Shown: one piece after another, positions 16,900 to 52,010 of the stretch
Position numbering within the stretch: position 1 is the first letter of the stretch
How the letters are laid out: each line of letters begins with the position of its first letter
Assembly: GCF_000091045.1 (NCBI RefSeq)
Contig: NC_006685.1
Span: forward strand, 1,356,201 to 1,420,200
Length of the DNA stretch: 64,000 nucleotides
Direction: 5' to 3'
From: Cryptococcus deneoformans JEC21
Lineage: Eukaryota > Basidiomycota > Tremellomycetes > Tremellales > Cryptococcaceae
The notes under the pieces: generated by a model
Databases searched by the model: none
What the model was told of the DNA's origin: nothing
Seen by the model: the letters and a program-made list of their open reading frames with translations, nothing else
Program-made: the position numbers and the translations under genes

Positions 16900-17297
16900 A
16901 CTGGATTCGCTCAACAGGCCCAAGTACACCAAGATGGCGATCAAAGGCATCTTGGGGAACGAGGGTGGTACAGTTAGGTCGTCAAGATCCTCTGGTTTCG
17001 AAAACATCTTTGTGCTGAAGGATGGAGCTCATTCGCATCGCGCTGCGTGCGAAAGCAGCGAGAGCTAAAATGGGACCGGGTTTTGGAAACCATCCCCTCT
17101 TCACTCGATCTAAATCCCATAGCGAACATATGGTATCTTCTGAAGGCAAAGGTCGCGGTTTCCAGAGTCGCTACGTCGCTTGACGAGCTCTGGGAACAGA
17201 TAATACGTACAGAAGGCATGAAATGAGATCAACCTTCTGGAGAGCAGGTGAGGGATCTCATAGATGAGATGGAGCAGAGGCGTGTAGCAATTTGAAA
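16900..17297 (+). pseudogene. Decayed Tc1/mariner transposase, C-terminal part
   Basis: Two overlapping frames together recall the C-terminal half of a Tc1/mariner DDE/D transposase. Frame one (about 16935-17065) has VLKDGAHSHRA, matching the conserved D-x-A-x-x-H block around the second catalytic aspartate, and ends at a stop. Frame two (about 17072-17220) has LDLNPIANIWYLLKAKVA, matching the DLNPIENxW block. It runs into a TGA after TEGMK, and readable sequence continues beyond it (DLIDEMEQRRVAI). At least one frameshift and one stop break the gene, and the position of the third catalytic acid is Ala (NPIA). No N-terminal half or terminal repeats were found. It is an inactive relic. Confidence 0.75.
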
Positions 17298-17668
17298 GGC
17301 GAAAAGAAAGTCTACCAAGTATTAGATTATTGTAAATTATACATAGAATCTGCCTATGTACTTGGTTTGCCGGAAAACATGCACTGTAAAACGATACATG
17401 CAATCGATGCATGTTGTCAATATAGATGGGAAAACGGGATCAAATGGGGGGGTACATTTCTTTTCCGTCGTAGTAGGTACCAGTAAGGTGTGGGCTTGTC
17501 CACTAATTAAGGTAACTAAAAGTTAAATTAACTCGTCAACATCTCCGACACTTCGTTTCAGCTGCATATCTTCACCAATTAATCTGTGCTCTTCGATTCA
17601 CAACTGCCCGTTTCTGTTACCAGCGACTTCACAATACCCTTGTTCACCACCTATCAGTAGTTATCGAT
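17298..17668. other. Intergenic, POP5 upstream region
   Basis: About 370 bp of AT-rich sequence between the transposase relic and POP5. No motif assigned. Confidence 0.5.
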
Positions 17669-30015: not shown

Positions 30016-31170
30016 AATCGGGGAAAAATGGACGGACCCGCTGATCTTGAGCCGGACACAGCCGCTCGTGATATTGAGCGAGTGGAAAAGGACATGTTGG
30101 ATGATTTTGAGATGAATTTGGGACTTGTATTGTGTCTTCGGAAGGCTCGAAATTTCAGACTGCAAGAGAGCAAACGGTGTCGAATCGTAAACTTTATTTG
30201 GTCCACACTTTTGCAGATCTCCCCAAATTATGTAATCATAGGGACATCCCATAACGCCGCCAATTTCCGCTTGCTGCATCGGCCAACGAGGGGGTGTTGT
30301 CTTCGAGTTTTATTTTTCTTTCTTCTTTCCCTTTCTTCAAACCCACAGGTAAGTGTCTGTCGCGCCCAGTCTCAGCTTGTCGCTCACAGTGCCGCATGCG
30401 CAGCTCCAAGGTCACATTGCTCGTTACGCACAGTCGGGTGTTTTGTGAGTCCCTGTCTCTCAAACGTGCACTTTGAAAGCCCCTGACAATCTTGTAGTCA
30501 AAGCATCCTTACCCATTCGCGAGCGGGCCAAGGTCCTGGAATTCCAACCCCCCTTTCTTGCATATTATTATCAAGTCTGACCGGTCTTAGCGGACCCTCG
30601 ACGCCAATCGCCGAGCTGCGCCCGACCAGAAATGCGTCCCTCTTCTTTCAACCTCGTTGGGTAGCCCGGAGAGACGCTTTTTCGCGTGGAGGGTATGTGA
30701 GAACTGTATTGGACTTGGTATGGGCGCGGGGGGTCGCCTTGTAGCCTTTCGTTTCTCCAGCACTCCTGCGTTATGCGGGGTATGAGAAGTCTCGTCTCAT
30801 CATCGTTTGAGAACTGAGAAGCGTTGGTCTTTTAAGACTGACCCGGCTGCAAGGCTTTAGTGCAATTTGGTGACGCTCTCAATTCAAACTCGTCTTCAAT
30901 CGATGGCGAGGAGGGTAACTCGATCAGGACTACTCTGGGGCTGCGGGTATGGCTCTCGTGAGCCTAGATTTTTATATTTATCAAACATATTTAATACCAT
31001 TATTTCTGGGATGCATTTTCAAACCTCGAGAAGAGATATTCACCAAGCTTGCGCCTGGTGCGACATACAAGATCATCTATCCTAGGGTATTGCGATTCGC
31101 CTCAACTTCATTTCTGACAACCGGTGTTCTATATTTGACAACACATAACCTGAAAAGCTAACTTCCGATC
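30016..31170. other. Intergenic, about 1.15 kb, one possible small ORF
   Basis: The upstream region of mL46 and the 3' flank of the Vip1-like gene. A plus-strand 70-codon frame (30949-31161) encodes a Tyr/Ile/Leu-rich peptide with two weakly hydrophobic segments; it has no recognised relative and overlaps the likely 3' UTR of the neighbour. Nothing else is supported. Confidence 0.4.
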
Positions 31171-42568: not shown

Positions 42569-43240
42569 CACAATAATTGTACTTCGACACTACATTAACG
42601 TTCCAGTCTCAGCAGATGTTCATATGCATACCACGCCGCTGGTCTTCTGTTTGTGTATATAAGCTAATGTTATCCATACCATGATCATATCGGTAATGTG
42701 CATTAGAGGTCATAAATGGTTGAACATATCCAAAAACAATTATTTCCTTTTGATGCCATAATGTGTTATCGTACTCGTCATCGTTCGTACGCTGAAAGGG
42801 ATGCGGTGCAGTCCGTGCAGGCGTCATCAGCACCTTGATGATATCGTTTCTTGGCCCTCAGTGTTTAGAGGTTTCTGAACGCCGCTCCGTGAATGTGGTA
42901 AATTTTGAATCCTGACGACAACAGCGACGATAGAAGTCCCAAAAAAACAACCCCCCCGATCCCGAGAAAATCAGCGGCGAGAGCCTCCTTCAGTCTTCGT
43001 CAGAGCTTCAGCCATTTCAAAACTCTTCAGAAGAATTGGGGACACTTCTGGGTATATATATGATAGTGCTTGTCAATATATAATCCGATCATCATTCCTG
43101 CCTTCTACTAATAGTAAGCAGGATAAACTTCGTTCCAAATTTACTTATTTATATTTCTATAAATGGGAGCCATTAGAAAAAGGGAACGTAATATAAAAAC
43201 TAGTAAAACGAGGTCTACCAGCTAAATAAAATCCCTCTGC
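42569..43240. other. Intergenic, convergent 3' flanks
   Basis: About 670 bp between convergent genes. It includes a run of C with A-tracts near 42940-42958 and a near-palindrome around TACTAATAGTA (43108-43118). No gene seen. Confidence 0.5.
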
Positions 43241-43609
43241 TCATTCCCAACGGCCAACTTCTTGCGCAGTCTTCTGATTCTTTTTTGCAGCACCAGAGAC
43301 GTCTTCGCTATCAGCTTTTCTGCCCCTATTTTTCCCAGCTCCTTCTTCCAACACATCTGACTTCTTCTTTGGTTTCTCCTCCAATAAGTAACCAGGGATT
43401 TGAATGTCCCGCCGATGAGCAAGAGGTCTGCCTGGTACCCTTTACAAAAGTTGATATTGTTACATGGTACTTGGGAAATACTCACCCCTTCCGGACTTGG
43501 TTTTAGGAGAGGCGCAAGACGAGGAAGAGGAGAAAGAAACAGCGCCAATTCGAGCAACCTGTATTGACCGTCTACTAGTGAGGCTGGTGAGGGGTCTTAA
43601 GGCGATCAT
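43241..43609 (-). CDS. Small protein with a mitochondrial-type presequence
   Basis: I do not recognise it. Two exons, 43609-43486 and 43431-43241, give 104 residues. The N-terminus (MIALRPLTSLTSRRSIQVAR) followed by a Ser-rich stretch is a typical cleavable mitochondrial signal. The rest is hydrophilic and basic (RRDIQIPGYLLEEKPKKKSD, then GKNRGRKADSEDVSG). I chose the acceptor at 43432 because it continues frame into this protein-like sequence. A different acceptor a few bases earlier opens another frame with an aromatic and basic composition. The transposon's left end lies only about 95 bp upstream of the ATG. Confidence 0.55.
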
Positions 43610-43703
43610 CCTGTGTTTTCGAGGAATGTAAGCAAACAATCTGTCGGAAATTGTATAACTGGTGAAATTCATTAAAATGTCGGAAGCGTAACAAAAGATG
43701 TTT

Positions 43704-43731
43704 TTTTGATACTGTAAAGCAGGTATCAAAA
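43704..43731. repeat. Terminal hairpin, 9-bp stem
   Basis: Perfect stem 43704-43712 with 43723-43731 and a loop of 10 nt. On the transposon's strand it follows the 3' inverted repeat directly, in the place where rolling-circle elements carry their 3' stop hairpin. Confidence 0.8.
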
Positions 43732-43734
43732 TAG

Positions 43735-43745
43735 GCTCGCGTTAG
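43735..43745. repeat. Left 11-bp terminal inverted repeat
   Basis: GCTCGCGTTAG, exact inverse of 49758-49768. An 11-bp GC-rich perfect match at both ends of one transposase gene is unlikely by chance. Confidence 0.8.
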
Positions 43746-43872
43746 TCTGTGTGCTTAACCTCTGCGCCGACCAAGTTGATTCCGACTTTGCATTATTATT
43801 ATGTACAACACTAGTAAAGCTATATACAACACCGAAAACTGTGAAAACATGCCAGGCTCAATCCGAATTATA

Positions 43873-46800
43873 TTAAACAAATATTCCCTCCTCCTCCCAA
43901 CCGGAGTAATCGTCGAAACCGCCCACCAAACCCTTTCTCCTCTCGTTGTCATCCTCCCATCTCCGTCTCATCCCAGTTCCTCTTGAGGATTTCGCACCAT
44001 TCACCTGCATCAGTCTCTCCAACTCAAACCCAGGCTTAAAGGCAATATGCTCAAGCTTTCTTACGCGAGACATGGCTACGAACGTAAGTCCACGAGCAAA
44101 TTCCCTATCACCGAGATGGAGACAAACTCTGTCAAGAGTCATGCCTTGAGATTTGTGGATGGTGATGGCAAATGCGAGTTGAAGAGGGAATTGGGTACGA
44201 CTGCAAGCAACTCCCTGGGACTTCCATTCACATTTCACCGGAGTGATCGGAACCAGAGGTACGCCCTGTGCATTTGTGCCAGCGTGAACTGGACCGGTAT
44301 AACCGGGGAACGCCACTAACACAGATGAAGGCATGTCAACCCCTGGTCGTGCAACACCATCCCAGAGAATCTCGTGCACTTGTCCCATTGACCCATTCGT
44401 GAGACCCTGATCGACCCAAAGGTTTCGAGTAAGCATGACCTTTGCGCCTTCCATCAAGAAGACGACGTTCGTCAGGGAATCAGCATCGTCAGGCCTTCTC
44501 TTCTCGGCACCAACACCGGTATGGAGAGCAGAGACGCGGAGGACCGGTTTTTTTGCGAGGTACAAGCCAGAGAGGTTGAGCTCCTGTACATGAGCAGATG
44601 TCGCACAGAGGTGAGTAGCCTGAACAAACAGCTTCTGCTCATCCGTCGGTAGCTTCGCAAAAAAACGAGTCTGGACCACATCGGCGAAGTCTTGCTCAAT
44701 GACCTTCCCAGCTCTAGAACGGAGGAGATGTTCTTTGAACTTGCGGGTGGTTTCATCCATACCAGCCTGCCTCATTTCCACATCCAGCTCCAAGCTCTCA
44801 GAGAAAGCAAGGTAAGCCAGACGACCATGGTTTAGGAGCCTTGATCTGTCCGAGTTACCCGTTTGGATATCAGTGGAATACAGAGGGACGTCACCGACCG
44901 GAGGTAGCTGGCCGAAATCTCCGCAGAGGATGACACTCAATCCACCGAACCAAACGTCCCTATGAGGAAAGATCTCACGAAGACGTTTGTCAATGAGGGC
45001 CAGTCCCACACGACCAACCATTGATTTTTCATCAATGATCAGATAGCGTATGTGCTTCCAATCCTCTTGAAGAGCAGCTAGCTGACGACCAGCAGCCGCC
45101 TTGCCTTTCTTCTCCTTTGGGGAGATGCCAAGGGCGGAATGGTATGTGGAGCCGTGTATATGAAAAGCGGCTATGCCTGTTGGCGCTAACCGTCTAACAA
45201 TCACCATACTTCCCATGCCAGCGTCATCGACTAAGTCTGCAGCCGTCTGACAAATCGCATTGACAGTGAACGTTTTGCCTGTACCTGCAGTACCGTCAAG
45301 GTTTAGGAGGAATGGCGGCAGAGGGTTGTTGGGCCCAGCTTGCAAGGAACGTTGGCAGTGTCGGCGAAATTTGGTGTGGCATAGAGCCTGCTTGAAATTG
45401 AGGAGAGTAACATCTACTCGAGGCAGAGGAGGAAGAGGATGGGGTAGTTCAGGAGGGGGCTTAATGACTGTGAGTCCACAGATCTCGCTAGACGACAATG
45501 ATATACACCTACAGGGTTTTTCCAGTCTTTAATGCCTTTGCTCAACAAAGCCACATCTTCCCCACCTCTTCTCTCTGACCATTCCTTCCATCTGAAGTCT
45601 TTGTCGAAGTCTCTTAGACCTAGCCTGTTTCCAATGAATTGGTTGGGGCGTGGGCCCATTGCCGAGAGAAGCTGTTCATCCGTTAGGATTCGTTCTTGGA
45701 CAATGTCGAGCTCTTCAAACTCTTCTTCTGGAGATTGGACAACAACACGACTTCTGGGTTTCGAAGGCATGGAGTCAGCTCTTCCCCCATTGTTTCGTAG
45801 AGCCCTGGCAGCCAGGAGACGGAAGTAGGTATCAGCCCAGGATTCGTTGTCCAGCCGAAGCTCAGTCTGATTGCGGTATGGAACATGGAGGAGGATCTTT
45901 GCTCGGAACCAATCTTCGCTGTCTTCTTCATTGGAGGGATTAGCACCGGGGTTTTCTTCATGCTCTTCACCTGGGGAGGATGGTAAGAGGGGTGAGTGTG
46001 TTATTCGGGGAGAAGCGGGGAGTACAGGAGGAGGTGGAGATAGGGGAGGCTCTGCAACTCATGTTCAGTAAAAGCAATGAGCATCACTGGTATCAGTCAG
46101 TACTAACCGTTATCTGTGTACATTTCATATGGTGGGAAGTACACTGGCCAGAGCCTGAGGACGTAACAAGACTCGTCATCTCTTCGTGAAAGGTTTCCAG
46201 TTCTCTTATTTTTCTCGAAGAATAGGTACCACTCATATAACGAAATGTTCTCTTCTTCAGGGGGTCTTTCCTCATACGCGTCCCTCCAGTCTTTCATTTC
46301 TGGACCATCATCATCATCCTCAGCATCGTCCATGTCGTCCTGGCCACCATTGCCCTCCTGTTCCTCTGGACCTCGAAGGCGTCGGAAACGATTCATTGAT
46401 AATGCAAGGGATCTGAATGAGCGGGACGCAGAGAACATATGACATCCCAGTAAAGAGTGGCAAACCTCTTGACCTGAGTAGTCACGAGAGCTGATATCGT
46501 TTGAAAGGACTTTCTGTGCCACAACACGCAGTGGTGTATCGTCTTCGAGGTGTTCAATGATCGAGAACAGTGTCGGAAGCAGATCGGCAGAAGACTTTTC
46601 CGATTTCGAAGCATATTTAGCAACGTAGTTAAGAACTGCATGGGGTGATTTGCAGGGGCTAAAGTCTGTATTTGCTGTCCATCCTAATACCAGCACTGGA
46701 CTGAAAGTATTCAGGTCTTGATCATTGCTTTTCACCACAAACGCCCACTCGTCACCCTCTTCCTCTCCTCTCACCCACTCTGTCTTCTCATGCAGAGGCC

Positions 46801-49152
46801 TCGGGAACCCAAATCGACATTGCGCTGGAGCGTCGGAGGGAGCATTACGCTTGCGTTTCATGCAGTACTGAGAGTGAGTTGCATGGCGCTGAAAGCAGTT
46901 GATCCTTTGCGCAACAGCGTGATGAGTAAACTCAATGTCTGCGAACGCTAAAGAGGAAGGATGACAGTCGCCTGCAGGAAGACCGACTTCAGGATTGAAA
47001 GCTGTGATGTGTTTATCCCAGAATTCAGCGAATGCGTTCCTAGACATGTCATCCCCCAACGCAGAGGGATCTGGCGCTCCATCCATCCAGATAAGACCGT
47101 GCACATGAGAGGAACCTCGACTTTGCCATTCATAACGGAACCACCATTCCTTTACCTTGAACACTGGTTTTATTACGTGCTCGAAAAATAACTGGAATCG
47201 TTTCTGAAAATACCATGCAGTGATAGCAGGATTGTTATTGACATTCTTGCTGTTGTGTCGCTGACGAGCAGTTTCCGAAACATGGGGTTCATCTGGTGGA
47301 GGCATATGTCGGTGCAGATCCGGCCAATGGAGATCAGCTGCGGTGACCGTGAGGAATGCATTTGGGGTTCCAAGTTGCTGAACCATAGCACTCAGCTCAG
47401 TGCTCCTTTTATGCCAATATGGAGCGGTCCCTCGAAGTTGATGACCCCCCCTCCGAACACGATCCAACAGGCTTCGAGCATCACTTTGGGCCAAGTCTCG
47501 CAGGTCTCCGGCAGACAACCCTCTATCTTCCTCATTCCTGGAAACCAAAAAGCCCGACATCTTCTTCGCTTGCCAACGCAGTAAAGCATTGAATGCATAG
47601 AACCTGAAGCGAGGATCACTGGCAAATCTCCCGTCTTTATAACGAAGTAGATGCCTGAAATACTCATCCGGATGAACTGCATGAATGCGATGGGCATGAA
47701 GGTCCGCCACACCACTCGGGAATAGGAAGGGGAAGGCTTCGATCAGGTATTCGTGACCTTGGTCATGTTCGTTGACAGGTTGGGATCCCAGTAGGGGAAC
47801 CGCGAGTGCGATTTCCTCACCATCATCATCACGTGCATAATGGCCGAGAGCAGCCCTAGCATCATCCAGCTCCATTCCAGGCTGCATCAAATTGGGGACA
47901 CAACCTGCTGAGACAATGTCGTTATTGGCTTCTGGAAGGTTGCCTGCGTGAGGACCAGAATCAGGGGCGGTGTGGGTTGTGACATTAGGGTCTGAAGCTT
48001 GGGTTGCTGAACGTAGGCGGTGGAAGACTGACCCATCTTCTGGGAGGCTGGCCAGATTCTCTTGACTGATGATGATGTCTCGGTAAGAAGGGTGAAAACG
48101 TTGAAGGGCCAGCAGGTTATCAATAAGCCGTTGTCGTTTGACATGGAACTCTGCGCGGTTCCCAAAGCCGGTGATATGTGTTGGAGAAGCCGAAGCGTCG
48201 CGAAGTATAAGAACATCCAGATGTTCAGGTAGAATAGGTAAGGTGTTCAGAAAAGCTGCATTATCACGGGAGAAAAGGCAGGTATGTCCAGCGTATGCGG
48301 TTTGCTGTCCGTGAACATTCCAATACTGGACCTGAAGGTGTATTTTGGATAAGAGAAGTTCTTCTGTATGCGACGGAGGTTCAGGACGTTGCATACCAGC
48401 TTCCTCACAAAGGTCTCCAAGTGATTTGCCTAAAATGGGGAAGGATGATGAGTAAAGAGTCTTTTTGAAACGTGATGAATCTCACCGGGATCCATATTGT
48501 TGTAGTCGGTAAACTTTGTCCTTCGTAAATAAGAGGACCTGCAACGCGTACACCTCCCCTCCCTACTGACATCCAAACCAAACCATCGCTCGTTGCACGT
48601 GATGCAAGTATCCACCGTTATCTTCTCGCATTCACTCTGAAAGGTCTTAATGCAGCTGATAGCATGTTGTGGGATAGCAGGTGCGTCAACATTATCTGTG
48701 AAGGGTATACGTGAAGGAGGGATGGTTCTTCGGCACTCAATACAGGTGTCATATGATTCGCCGTTGGCCTCGAAACGTTCTCGCGGAAACGATTCGTCAC
48801 AGAGGGCACATTTGATAGGCCTTGGTGGGCGCCGGAGTTGTTGATCACCCTCGTCTATATCATCAAAGCGTGCTGGAGCCCGGCGTTCGCGCCGTGGTCG
48901 ACGGCGAGCAGGCTGTTGATCAAGATCATGGAACTGTTGGTTACCTTCGTTTTCATCGTCCAGCCGTGTTGGAGGCCTGCTTTCACGCCTCGGATGACGA
49001 AAAGCAGGATATTGGCCACCTGGAAAGCGATCAGAGGGAAGTAAATTGCGAGGTTCAGGACTGTCATCATGCGGACGACGACGACGTCGGGCCCCGTCAG
49101 AGGTAGAGGGCATGTCGCCAATATCGGCCAAAGTTGTAGTACGTTTACTCAT
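43873..49152 (-). CDS. RepHel replicase-helicase of a Helitron-like transposon
   Basis: Rolling-circle transposase. Four exons keep one frame: 49152-48486, 48429-46108, 46051-45509 and 45467-43873, total 1,708 codons without a stop. Residues 1-222: Arg-rich start and a Cys-rich, zinc-finger-like region (CALCDES, CIECRRT, CITCNERW, CTRCRSSYL). About 480-850: Helitron-like N domain with the HUH motif GSSHVHGLIW (about residue 663) and the nucleophile motif NYVAKYASK with two Tyr (about 820). About 1230-1700: Pif1-type helicase with Walker A GTAGTGKT, Walker B YLIIDEKSMVG, LCGDFGQLPPVGD, and the late motif TIHKSQGMTLD. The C-terminus ends EEEGIFV. No endonuclease or captured host domain is seen. 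All key catalytic residues are present. Confidence 0.93.
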
Positions 49153-49225
49153 TGTCGTGGAGCGATGGTAGGGGATACCAGGGGCACTTAATGACTGCAC
49201 GACATATAGGTAGAGAATCAAGAGA

Positions 49226-49245
49226 GTAACAGGACGTAACAGGAC
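49226..49245. repeat. Tandem 10-bp repeat, two copies
   Basis: GTAACAGGAC occurs twice without a gap, in the 5' leader of the RepHel gene. Confidence 0.8.
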
Positions 49246-49256
49246 GAACGAATGAC

Positions 49257-49271
49257 AAACGCGACGCGTTT
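49257..49271. repeat. Short palindrome AAACGCG-A-CGCGTTT
   Basis: Perfect 7-bp arms with a single-base spacer, followed by a further CGCGTCG copy at 49283-49289 that pairs with CGACGCG inside it. It lies just before the duplicated segment in the transposon's 5' region. Confidence 0.75.
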
Positions 49272-49292
49272 TTGTACCAAGTCGCGTCGAGG

Positions 49293-49480
49293 AAGTGCAT
49301 GCCTACAGCCGATCATCGCTTGCCTTACCTTCTTCAGCCAAATTCAAGTAAACGGCACAGACATTTTAAGTATGCATGCATAGTACCATTAGAAGGGCGG
49401 ACCTGGAAGGAACTCAGTGGTATAACTGTCGGGGCTGCAGGATGAGTTTTGATCGAGTAATATGGAATTAAAAGAGACAT
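49293..49480. repeat. Subterminal direct repeat, unit A
   Basis: Begins AAGTGCATGCCTA and ends around GAGTAATATGGAATT. It matches unit B in the same order: CTTCAGCCAA, ATGCAT, CGGACCTG, GATGAGTTTT, CGAGTAATATGGAATT. Confidence 0.8.
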
Positions 49481-49533
49481 TAAAGGGGGTGTTTCGCGAA
49501 TATTAGTACAGAAACGCGTGAAAAAGTGGTAAA

Positions 49534-49726
49534 AAGTGCATGCCTAGAGCCTATTTGTGCGCGCCTAAGGACACACCTTCAGCCAATTTCAACTAAGTGA
49601 CCCAGAGGTGTAAAGAATGCATATACGGTATTTTTGGATGCACGGACCTGAGCCCAGTTCAATGATACAGGTTTGAAAGCCATACGATGAGTTTTAACCG
49701 AGTAATATGGAATTGAAAACACATAG
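49534..49726. repeat. Subterminal direct repeat, unit B
   Basis: Imperfect copy of unit A with an offset of 241-245 bp. It lies immediately inside the right terminal inverted repeat. Confidence 0.8.
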
Positions 49727-49757
49727 AAAGTGGGACGTCGGGAGTACTGGTTGCCCG

Positions 49758-49768
49758 CTAACGCGAGC
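49758..49768. repeat. Right 11-bp terminal inverted repeat
   Basis: CTAACGCGAGC, exact inverse of 43735-43745. On the transposon strand the sequence before it reads ...TTATC, so a 5' terminus at or near the TC is possible. Confidence 0.8.
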
Positions 49769-49775
49769 GATAACC

Positions 49776-52010
49776 ATGCGTGGCGCGATGTATCTTTCGT
49801 TTTAGTTTTGAACTTTGACCTAACAGCGGTTAAAAACACTATTTTCATTTCAAATCTAATGTTAATTATTTGAGTTTGCAGTGTGAAGTGTGAAGTTCGA
49901 CATGCGGCGAGCGGCGTTACTGGCGTTCTTCAAATCCCGGGATTCATAGTATTCGTCGGGGTCTTCGCATCTCTGCAGAATGGCAAAACTGGCTCTCTTC
50001 TCTCCGGTTGGGCGTGGGCGGTAGTCGACTCATGCTTGCGTTTCTTGTCGATCTGGTTTTATAGAAGTAGGAGGAGGTTTGGCTGCAGATAACCGAGCGA
50101 AACCGGTACAGCGCAGGCTGGCTCGGCCTGGGAGATCTTGGGCTGTGAGTCTTTGGCGAGGTACCATTTGTTGGTAATCGTCTCAGCAGTAGACTCCTCG
50201 GGATAAGTAGTAGCCTGCGCCATGCACGATCAATCTGACCAACGAATATCTTCCCAAACCTAAGACCTACAGATAGAGACGGCTTACAGGATGGGAGCTG
50301 CTCATAGACTCCTCCCTTCACGGCTCCTCCTCTTGTTCTGATGACAGCCACCGAGACCCTGCCTGGGGCGAGCTCGGACAACACGTTCCTTGGAATTGTA
50401 CGCAATCAATGCTCTTGGCACCGGTCTTTTTGAGCATATCGCCAATAGGTCGTCCAGACACTGTTCATCACAGGTGTTGATAATAATTTTGGCCTCGTAT
50501 TCCTCCTCGTCTATCAAAGACTCTTATTCAGTTCATCCTTCTTCCGTTGCTGATGAATGATCTTTGTGAGGATGGCAAGCGAGTCTCTCCTTCATTTGAC
50601 TAAGCAAGTAAGCGGTTTGGATGAAAAGAGAGGCATTTTATGGTTGTTCGCTATGAATTACTTCCAATAATATTTGCATAGTTGTGCAGTGTGCATACAA
50701 GTTAGAAGGATAGAGAAACTGTAGAAGAAGACAGACTGGACGACGGCAGACAGTGGCTACGTACGCGTCAGAGATATATAAAAGGCGTCCCGGCTTCCCA
50801 TGGAACTCATTCGTGCGCTTACTGAAAATAGGCTTCTGGGTAACTTATAAGTAGCCGTCTAAAAACCCGGACTTGAGGTCCGGAAGTCAGCCCCCGAAGG
50901 AGGTTCGGGATTCGGGTTTGAAAGTTCCAGATCTGAGGAAGGCTGTATTTTAATTATTCGCTTCCACCTTTTCGTTTTTCGTTGTCGATCATGGTCCTGA
51001 AAGTTTATAGCTTAATAAGATTTCTAGACTGATTACTTCCATTTACAGTCGGCATCATTTACGGTCCCCTACGCACACGTTTTTTCTGACCGCTGTCCCC
51101 AAGCTCCTCCATGCTTGGTGCTTATGGTCACCTACAGGCACAATACTCCACACCCAAAATTCTGTACGTTACACGTTTCAGGGATGATTTCCGTCATCCG
51201 CCGCTAGCCGCCAGCCTGCAAGCTTCATGTTTCCTTTTTTCTTTCCGTTTTCCGACGACTTCTTGAATCCTGAATGTAGTATATGGCTTTTTTTGGTTTT
51301 CAGGTATGTCAACCATCGGTGATTGACTTTCAACTGAAGGCTTCCATCTTCCGTTACCTAGGAGGGGGAAGATGGAAGGTGATAGGCGATAGCTGATGAT
51401 ACATAGGTGACAAGTGTCGAATAACAATTGAAGACGAGAGTAGGTGAGTAACCACCCCTTCATCTCCTAAACTTGTACCTGGTGCCTTTGCTTTTAATTT
51501 CCATATGCTATATGGTTTATAGCCACCGGTACCTACGTACATGCAGTTGTAATCTGCAGTCTGCAGTGCAGTTGGTCTCTTATCTCCCTTCTCAGGCATT
51601 AGGAATTGGAAGAAGTCAGTTAAGGACATAATCTTGATTGCAAAGTTCACCAAAGCTTCTTCGTCAAAGCTCTCATCACAAAAGCTATGGCGCTGGTGGG
51701 ACAGTTGTAGACATCATTTTTTTCTTCAGTTCCCAGACCGATCTGACCTCGTCTTCCATCCCACGATCATGACGGAAGAATCAGAAGCCAAGAGGAGGGA
51801 AACTACATCATATATAAAGTGCATGGGATCCCTACTGATTTCCTCTATGTTTCCTTATCAATTAGTCTCGTACACTTCAACTTCTTCTCACTTTTTCTGA
51901 CATCCACATCTTTACAGCGATCCAATTTTACGTCTGTCGTAGCGTAGCTCAACTACCTACCATAACTGTCGTTCTCAAGAAGCACCCGCGCGCAACTAAC
52001 TCTTTCCACA
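49776..52010. other. Gene-poor stretch with uncertain minus-strand coding remnants
   Basis: No gene is supported with confidence. Minus-strand open pieces at 50517-50302 (DEEEYEAKIIINTCDEQCLDD) and 50223-50080 (EESTAETITNKWYLAKDSQP) have a protein-like composition and plausible donors near them, but no family is recognised. They may be a broken or unannotated gene. A structured element lies at 50861-50920. The last 500 bp is the leader of the glutaredoxin-fold gene. Confidence 0.4.
50861..50920 (+). other. Compact multi-stem inverted-repeat element
   Basis: Two perfect 6-bp hairpins, CCGGAC/GTCCGG (50867-50872 with 50878-50883) and CCCGAA/TTCGGG (50893-50898 with 50904-50909), are enclosed by AAACCC/GGGTTT (50863-50868 with 50914-50919). 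The outer arm shares two bases with the first hairpin. This would fold as a three-way junction. The host gene or RNA is unknown; it could be a small structured RNA or a transposon terminus. Confidence 0.55.

Follow-up and report, generated by a model that had tools for sequence, protein, structure and literature searches.

A probable Helitron2-type rolling-circle transposon in Cryptococcus deneoformans JEC21 with an mL54 gene fragment flush with its 3′ end

Helitron2 elements, as presented in the available sections of Bao and Jurka 2013 (PMC3627910), carry asymmetric inverted repeats of 8–15 bp, of which the 5′ one stands within 0–2 bp of the end and forms part of a 5′ hairpin, and the 3′ one lies upstream of a 3′ hairpin. 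According to a suggestion in the same sections, the two repeats pair when replication finishes, which opens the 5′ hairpin and so determines the end point; Helitron-1N1_CRe is described as lacking a target duplication, and some Chlamydomonas Helitron2 members as having one. For the genus Cryptococcus, the accessible part of a review (PMC7175516) confines Helitrons to H99 (serotype A) with reference to Castanera et al. 2016; this is not spelled out in the accessible part of the latter (PMC4905642). Helitron sequence amounting to 511–619 bp is reported for eight serotype A-type (var. grubii) genomes in the portion of PMC5484541 at hand.

Here, we investigated a 64,000-nucleotide stretch of the genome of C. 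deneoformans JEC21 (the window), in which an earlier note, made from the sequence alone, had pointed out the ends of a mobile element around a RepHel gene. JEC21 is a serotype D strain. With a probability of about 0.88, the element is a Helitron2-type rolling-circle transposon with the ends given in Table 1, and a 241-bp fragment of a mitochondrial ribosomal protein gene next to it was acquired when the stop of an earlier insertion was missed. It is read as a rolling-circle transposon because its frames encode Rep and PIF1 domains and its terminal bases are shared by copies on other contigs. Judged by its ends and by diagnostic Rep residues, it appears to be a new family within Helitron2, which is itself a described group.

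Table 1. Coordinates in the window of the element, its parts and the adjoining gene fragment
Feature	Position	Strand	Remarks
Whole Helitron2-type element, ~6,075 bp	43696..49770	-	5′ end 49770, 3′ end 43696
5′ asymmetric terminal inverted repeat GCTCGCGTTAG	49758..49768	-	2 bp from 5′ end
5′ hairpin GCTCGC-GTTA-GCGGGC	49753..49768	-	6-bp stem, built from 5′ repeat
Outer copy of duplicated 5′ subterminal domain	49577..49734	-	
Inner copy of 5′ subterminal domain	49332..49489	-	diverged; intact terminal repeat missing
Open frame, N-terminal Cys-containing part of RepHel gene	48430..49302	-	without Pfam family
Rep exon, Helitron_like_N (PF14214) and DUF6570; HVH, YVAKY	46103..48394	-	Helitron_like_N E 1.1e-39
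Open frame between Rep and helicase	45414..46058	-	without Pfam family
PIF1-type helicase exon (PF05970), GTAGTGKT	43873..45498	-	E 2.4e-25
3′ asymmetric terminal inverted repeat CTAACGCGAGC (element orientation)	43735..43745	-	39 bp from 3′ end
3′ hairpin	43704..43731	-	9-bp stem TTTTGATAC (43704-43712)/GTATCAAAA (43723-43731), 10-nt loop
3′ terminal tail AAACATCT	43696..43703	-	last 8 bp beyond hairpin
Mitochondrial ribosomal L37 (mL54) gene fragment, 241 bp	43455..43695	-	flush with element 3′ end

The large frames of the element all lie on the minus strand, and short introns with GT...AG borders, picked out by eye from the sequence, seem to link its exons. These frames contain what defines a Helitron2 RepHel, namely HUH, tyrosines and a PIF1-type helicase; HVH (the HUH motif), YVAKY and GTAGTGKT are the catalytic motifs. 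An ordinary cut-and-paste transposon is ruled out by the combination of Rep and helicase and by the absence of a target duplication. The Rep exon has two matches elsewhere in the genome, each short and each with a stop; no copy whose Rep exon is open was found there besides the window element. Among 7,998 candidate proteins scored, 16 are relatives by sequence; the top one shows 96% identity across 59% of the query and the remaining ones 25–48%, with three named Tremella mesenterica proteins at 44–48% among them, and a search by sequence for relatives of Rep with solved structures returned none. Elsewhere in the window, 30400-30944 (+) holds the nuclear RNase P RNA gene, which scores 63.7 bits (gathering score 28).

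The 11-bp inverted repeat pair that the earlier note had described is real, with GCTCGCGTTAG at 43735-43745 on the plus strand and its exact inverse at 49758-49768, and the 9-bp-stem hairpin does follow the 3′ repeat copy, as claimed, because with a minus-strand gene 43735-43745 is the true 3′ copy. Repeats and hairpin indeed mark the ends, but the limits of 43704 and 49775 proposed from them have to be moved to 43696 and 49770, an ambiguous T being counted to the element at the 5′ end and to the target after the 3′ end. The element thus delimited starts with TC-GCTCGCGTTAG and finishes in CATCT. Its 3′ hairpin has a perfect stem and begins 3 bp after the 3′ repeat. A sliding scan found five perfect 9-bp hairpins with loops of 3–15 in the 64-kb window, the element's own counted, and when the 41-nt tail was shuffled such a hairpin arose in 27 of 20,000 trials. 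The C6 and C4 copies (C with a number denotes a contig) carry the hairpin unchanged, and two substitutions in the stem of the C8 copy leave 7 of the 9 pairs; CATCT is followed by T at all six 3′ ends compared (window, C6, C8, C4, C13 and C14).

Judged from the window by itself, the repeat pair carries little weight: at least two matches were obtained in 11 of 100 shuffles with one mismatch allowed. Together with the 5′-TC start, this would fit a canonical Helitron1 in which the inverted repeats arose by chance. Across the whole genome (19,051,922 bases in 14 contigs), however, the exact 11-mer occurs 14 times, against once for a control pattern, and ten of these occurrences, two of them the window's own, stand at ends with at least 38 bp of element homology, the 11-mer included. 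Three more (C4:597k, C7:534k and C14:676k) are 5′-end-like with shorter or weaker homology, and the one at C12:728k is apparently unrelated to the element. The window, C6 and C8 copies have conserved repeats at both ends, and additional single ends have them too. All six pairs of the 5′ stem are intact in 9 of the 11 copies compared, and are kept in C5, C1 and C14:676k despite substitutions inside the stem; the stem is broken in C4:597k and C7, the two weakest family members. The 3′ end is CATCT rather than CTRR, and the A/T insertion rule of canonical Helitron1 does not hold, A occupying the −1 position in just 4 of 11 flanks. A Helitron1 with fortuitous repeats is therefore extremely unlikely.

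The Helitron2-type ends can also be followed in other copies, whose alignment the earlier note had proposed, and in the single genome examined homology gives out at the ends themselves or no more than a few bases away. Searches with each end plus flank returned 7 and 15 matches, including the window itself and two flank-only matches. The 5′ ends of the copies align from TCGCTCGCGTTAGC inward and the outside sequence differs, the C1 copy excepted, with blast alignments running 3 bp past the 5′ end, over TAA/CAA/AAA, in a few copies. On the 3′ side, the alignment of the window, C6, C8 and C4 copies includes CTAACGCGAGC, the hairpin and AACATCT, beyond which the copies diverge. Both ends are present in the window copy, in the C6 copy (~1.99 kb, with an internal deletion) and in the C8 copy (~258 bp); the latter consists of the ends only and is a short non-autonomous copy of the kind that had been suggested. 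The family also has truncated and internally deleted relatives in this genome.

Homology reaching well past the ends, which would have spoken against them, was seen in C1:4585-4720 alone, which shares ~13 bp beyond the 5′ end. There, CCACGCATG lies directly outside the 5′ end of both the C1 copy (L045 4585-4720) and the window copy (window 49771-49783). By our own arithmetic, the chance expectation of such a shared 9-mer is ~0.06 among 55 flank pairs. The likeness is possibly due to chance; if it is real, the 5′ end of the window copy may lie ~13 bp further out, the extra bases being old flank. At the start of the C1 contig (L045 4363-4720), two 5′ ends of the element stand in tandem, 38 bp apart.

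Other remnants are more complex. The C13 locus (L046 3852-5640) is a composite of a Helitron2 5′ part, a Tc1/mariner-like fragment and the 18 terminal nt of the 3′ end, and was rejected as a clean non-autonomous copy on account of this middle part and of a 3′ match confined to those 18 nt. Tc1/mariner-like is our reading of the middle, whose match to a Tc3-type HTH is weak and below Pfam's cut-off; a fragment at 16904-17468 of the window is 81% identical to it. L046 and L065 (C14:750856) both hold solo 3′ tips, comprising roughly the last 18–25 nt from the hairpin loop to CATCT, and the hairpin loop may be a favoured breakpoint.

Empty sites, which had likewise been proposed as a check, were found for the C6 copy. 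This copy sits in repeated sequence, and its joined flanks match C2:761939-762170 and C11:175139-175370 at 86% through the junction. The two empty sites read ATCTTGTCATAC and the filled C6 site reads ATCTTG-TCGCTCG...CATCT-TCATAC, so that insertion occurred without target duplication and the ends of the C6 copy are fixed to one T, which can be assigned to the element or the target alike. A search of the genome for an empty site of the C8 copy gave none, one 80% match spanning part of one flank, and flank searches for the window copy returned only itself, the C10 gene described below and diverged repeats. Both flanks of the window insertion (43234-43426 and 49895-50934) contain diverged dispersed repeats with 71–78% identity elsewhere in the genome.

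Among 11 five-prime flanks, T is found at −3 in nine and at −2 in eight (binomial P 0.0002 and 0.0015), and the base at −1 is A in four, G in four, T in two and C in one. This count leaves out C12:728k (an 11-mer without TC context), the C1 inner 5′ end and C3:1724k (both with a decayed tip), and C13 (5′ truncated). In the copies with clear homology alone the preference is weaker, with T at −3 in 6 of 8 (P 0.005) and at −2 in 5 of 8 (P 0.03). The target consensus predicted from these flanks is TTR|T.

The layout had been attributed by the earlier note to the Helitron2/Helentron type, and the Helitron2 half of this attribution stands, given the repeats, the hairpins and the lack of CTRR. Helentrons in the strict sense are rolling-circle elements with an AP endonuclease that insert in TT. 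The element resembles the Helentrons and HINEs of Thomas et al. 2014 (PMC4067079, accessible part) in its subterminal inverted repeats, its 3′ stem-loop, its short non-autonomous derivatives and the S after RG in the Rep motif (RGSSHVH), a position given there as diagnostic of Helentrons; at the other diagnostic Rep signature listed in that part, a triplet, the element reads WFR and agrees at the R alone. However, a Pfam scan of the element frames at E 0.001 found no endonuclease domain, and the predicted target, TTR|T, may not be simply TT. Identification as a Helentron is thus very improbable.

The fragment that adjoins the 3′ end of this Helitron2-type element spans mL54 from upstream of the ATG to the start of intron 1 and is 98.8% identical to C10:289735-289975, on another chromosome, with 3 differences in 241. 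The C10 gene has a match to PF08561 (mitochondrial ribosomal protein L37, E 3.3e-22) in exon 2, and its exon 1 is similar to L37 proteins of Cryptococcus species. The homology with C10 begins at the first base past CATCT, and the C10 sequence at that point, TTTTA|TTTG, is an unoccupied TTR|T site. The base past the fragment is T, and the rejoined recipient site would read GGTTA|T. At difference 112 a serine is encoded in the window and in three related proteins, and an asparagine in C10; the window copy apparently retains the ancestral state, since its serine matches these three proteins.

The fragment could have been an independent duplication that already lay at the window site when the Helitron2 element inserted beside it, which would suit the finding that C10 has no Helitron at the site upstream of mL54 and that genome searches recover the fragment in the window and C10 only. 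Yet insertion inside such a duplicate should have left its other half at the 5′ flank of the element, where the C10 sequence upstream of TTTTA|TTTG is absent, and otherwise the edge of the duplicate must coincide by chance with both the last base of the element and the TTA|T site of C10. We consider this history rather unlikely, and infer that 3′ read-through from a former insertion at C10 is the best explanation of the fragment. By analogy with the family, Rep would nick the 5′ TC terminus, one strand would be displaced by the helicase, the 3′ end formed by repeat, hairpin and CATCT would halt replication to give a circle, and the circle would insert at TTR|T; once, the stop would have been missed, and the 241 bp of mL54 downstream of the earlier insertion would have been copied along.

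The first exon of mL54 is probably mitochondrial-targeting, and a short frame that closes near 43241 could be spliced to exon 1 through a predicted acceptor near 43432. The piece moved by read-through may have comprised mL54 sequence from the upstream region and start codon through exon 1 to its splice donor, placing this donor where it joins the acceptor and a new short targeted protein is made, a consequence that we regard as unlikely. Our search for an annotated fusion of exon 1 with the downstream frame found none; it returned three proteins, whose match is confined to exon 1, two of them containing PF08561 and the third unnamed.

What appears to be new, from comparison of the two loci, is an mL54 fragment flush with the 3′ end of the element together with a parent gene that retains a vacant target-like site. 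The flush fragment would illustrate, in compact natural form, the 3′ read-through that has been proposed as a mechanism of gene capture by Helitrons, and, should the new targeted protein indeed be made, it would be an instance of exon shuffling in which the vacant donor site can still be read. Base-exact ends and empty sites would permit correct annotation where programs tuned to TC...CTRR miss such elements. A Helitron2 element in JEC21 also contradicts the restriction to H99 found in the accessible part of PMC7175516, which would need correcting.

The element is not described in the available parts of PMC5148889, PMC4067079, PMC3627910, PMC7175516, PMC4905642, PMC12810828, PMC5484541 and PMC12730594, Repbase lying outside the search. 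It is like the Helitron2 group, as far as the accessible sections of PMC3627910 portray it, in its 11-bp repeats placed 2 bp from the 5′ end, its 5′ hairpin, the T at its 5′ end, a 3′ repeat just before a hairpin and the absence of target duplication (in one copy). It is unlike the group in that its 3′ repeat lies 39 bp from the end, compared with ~20–30, and in its target of apparently TTR|T, compared with TTTT|T/C. With FoHeli1 and FoHeli2 of Fusarium oxysporum, in what is available of PMC5148889, it shares the TC start, the 5′ hairpin, a TNAT-like target, a length of ~5–6 kb and the distance of the 3′ repeat from the end, which is 38–51 bp in FoHeli. Joined element ends are reported there for FoHeli1; no capture abutting the 3′ end is mentioned for FoHeli1 or FoHeli2. 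The duplicated 5′ subterminal domains of the element recall the multiple 5′ termini of some FoHeli copies in the same source; the termini themselves differ, being TCAG...ATTTT in FoHeli and TCGC...CATCT in the element, and so does the host genus.
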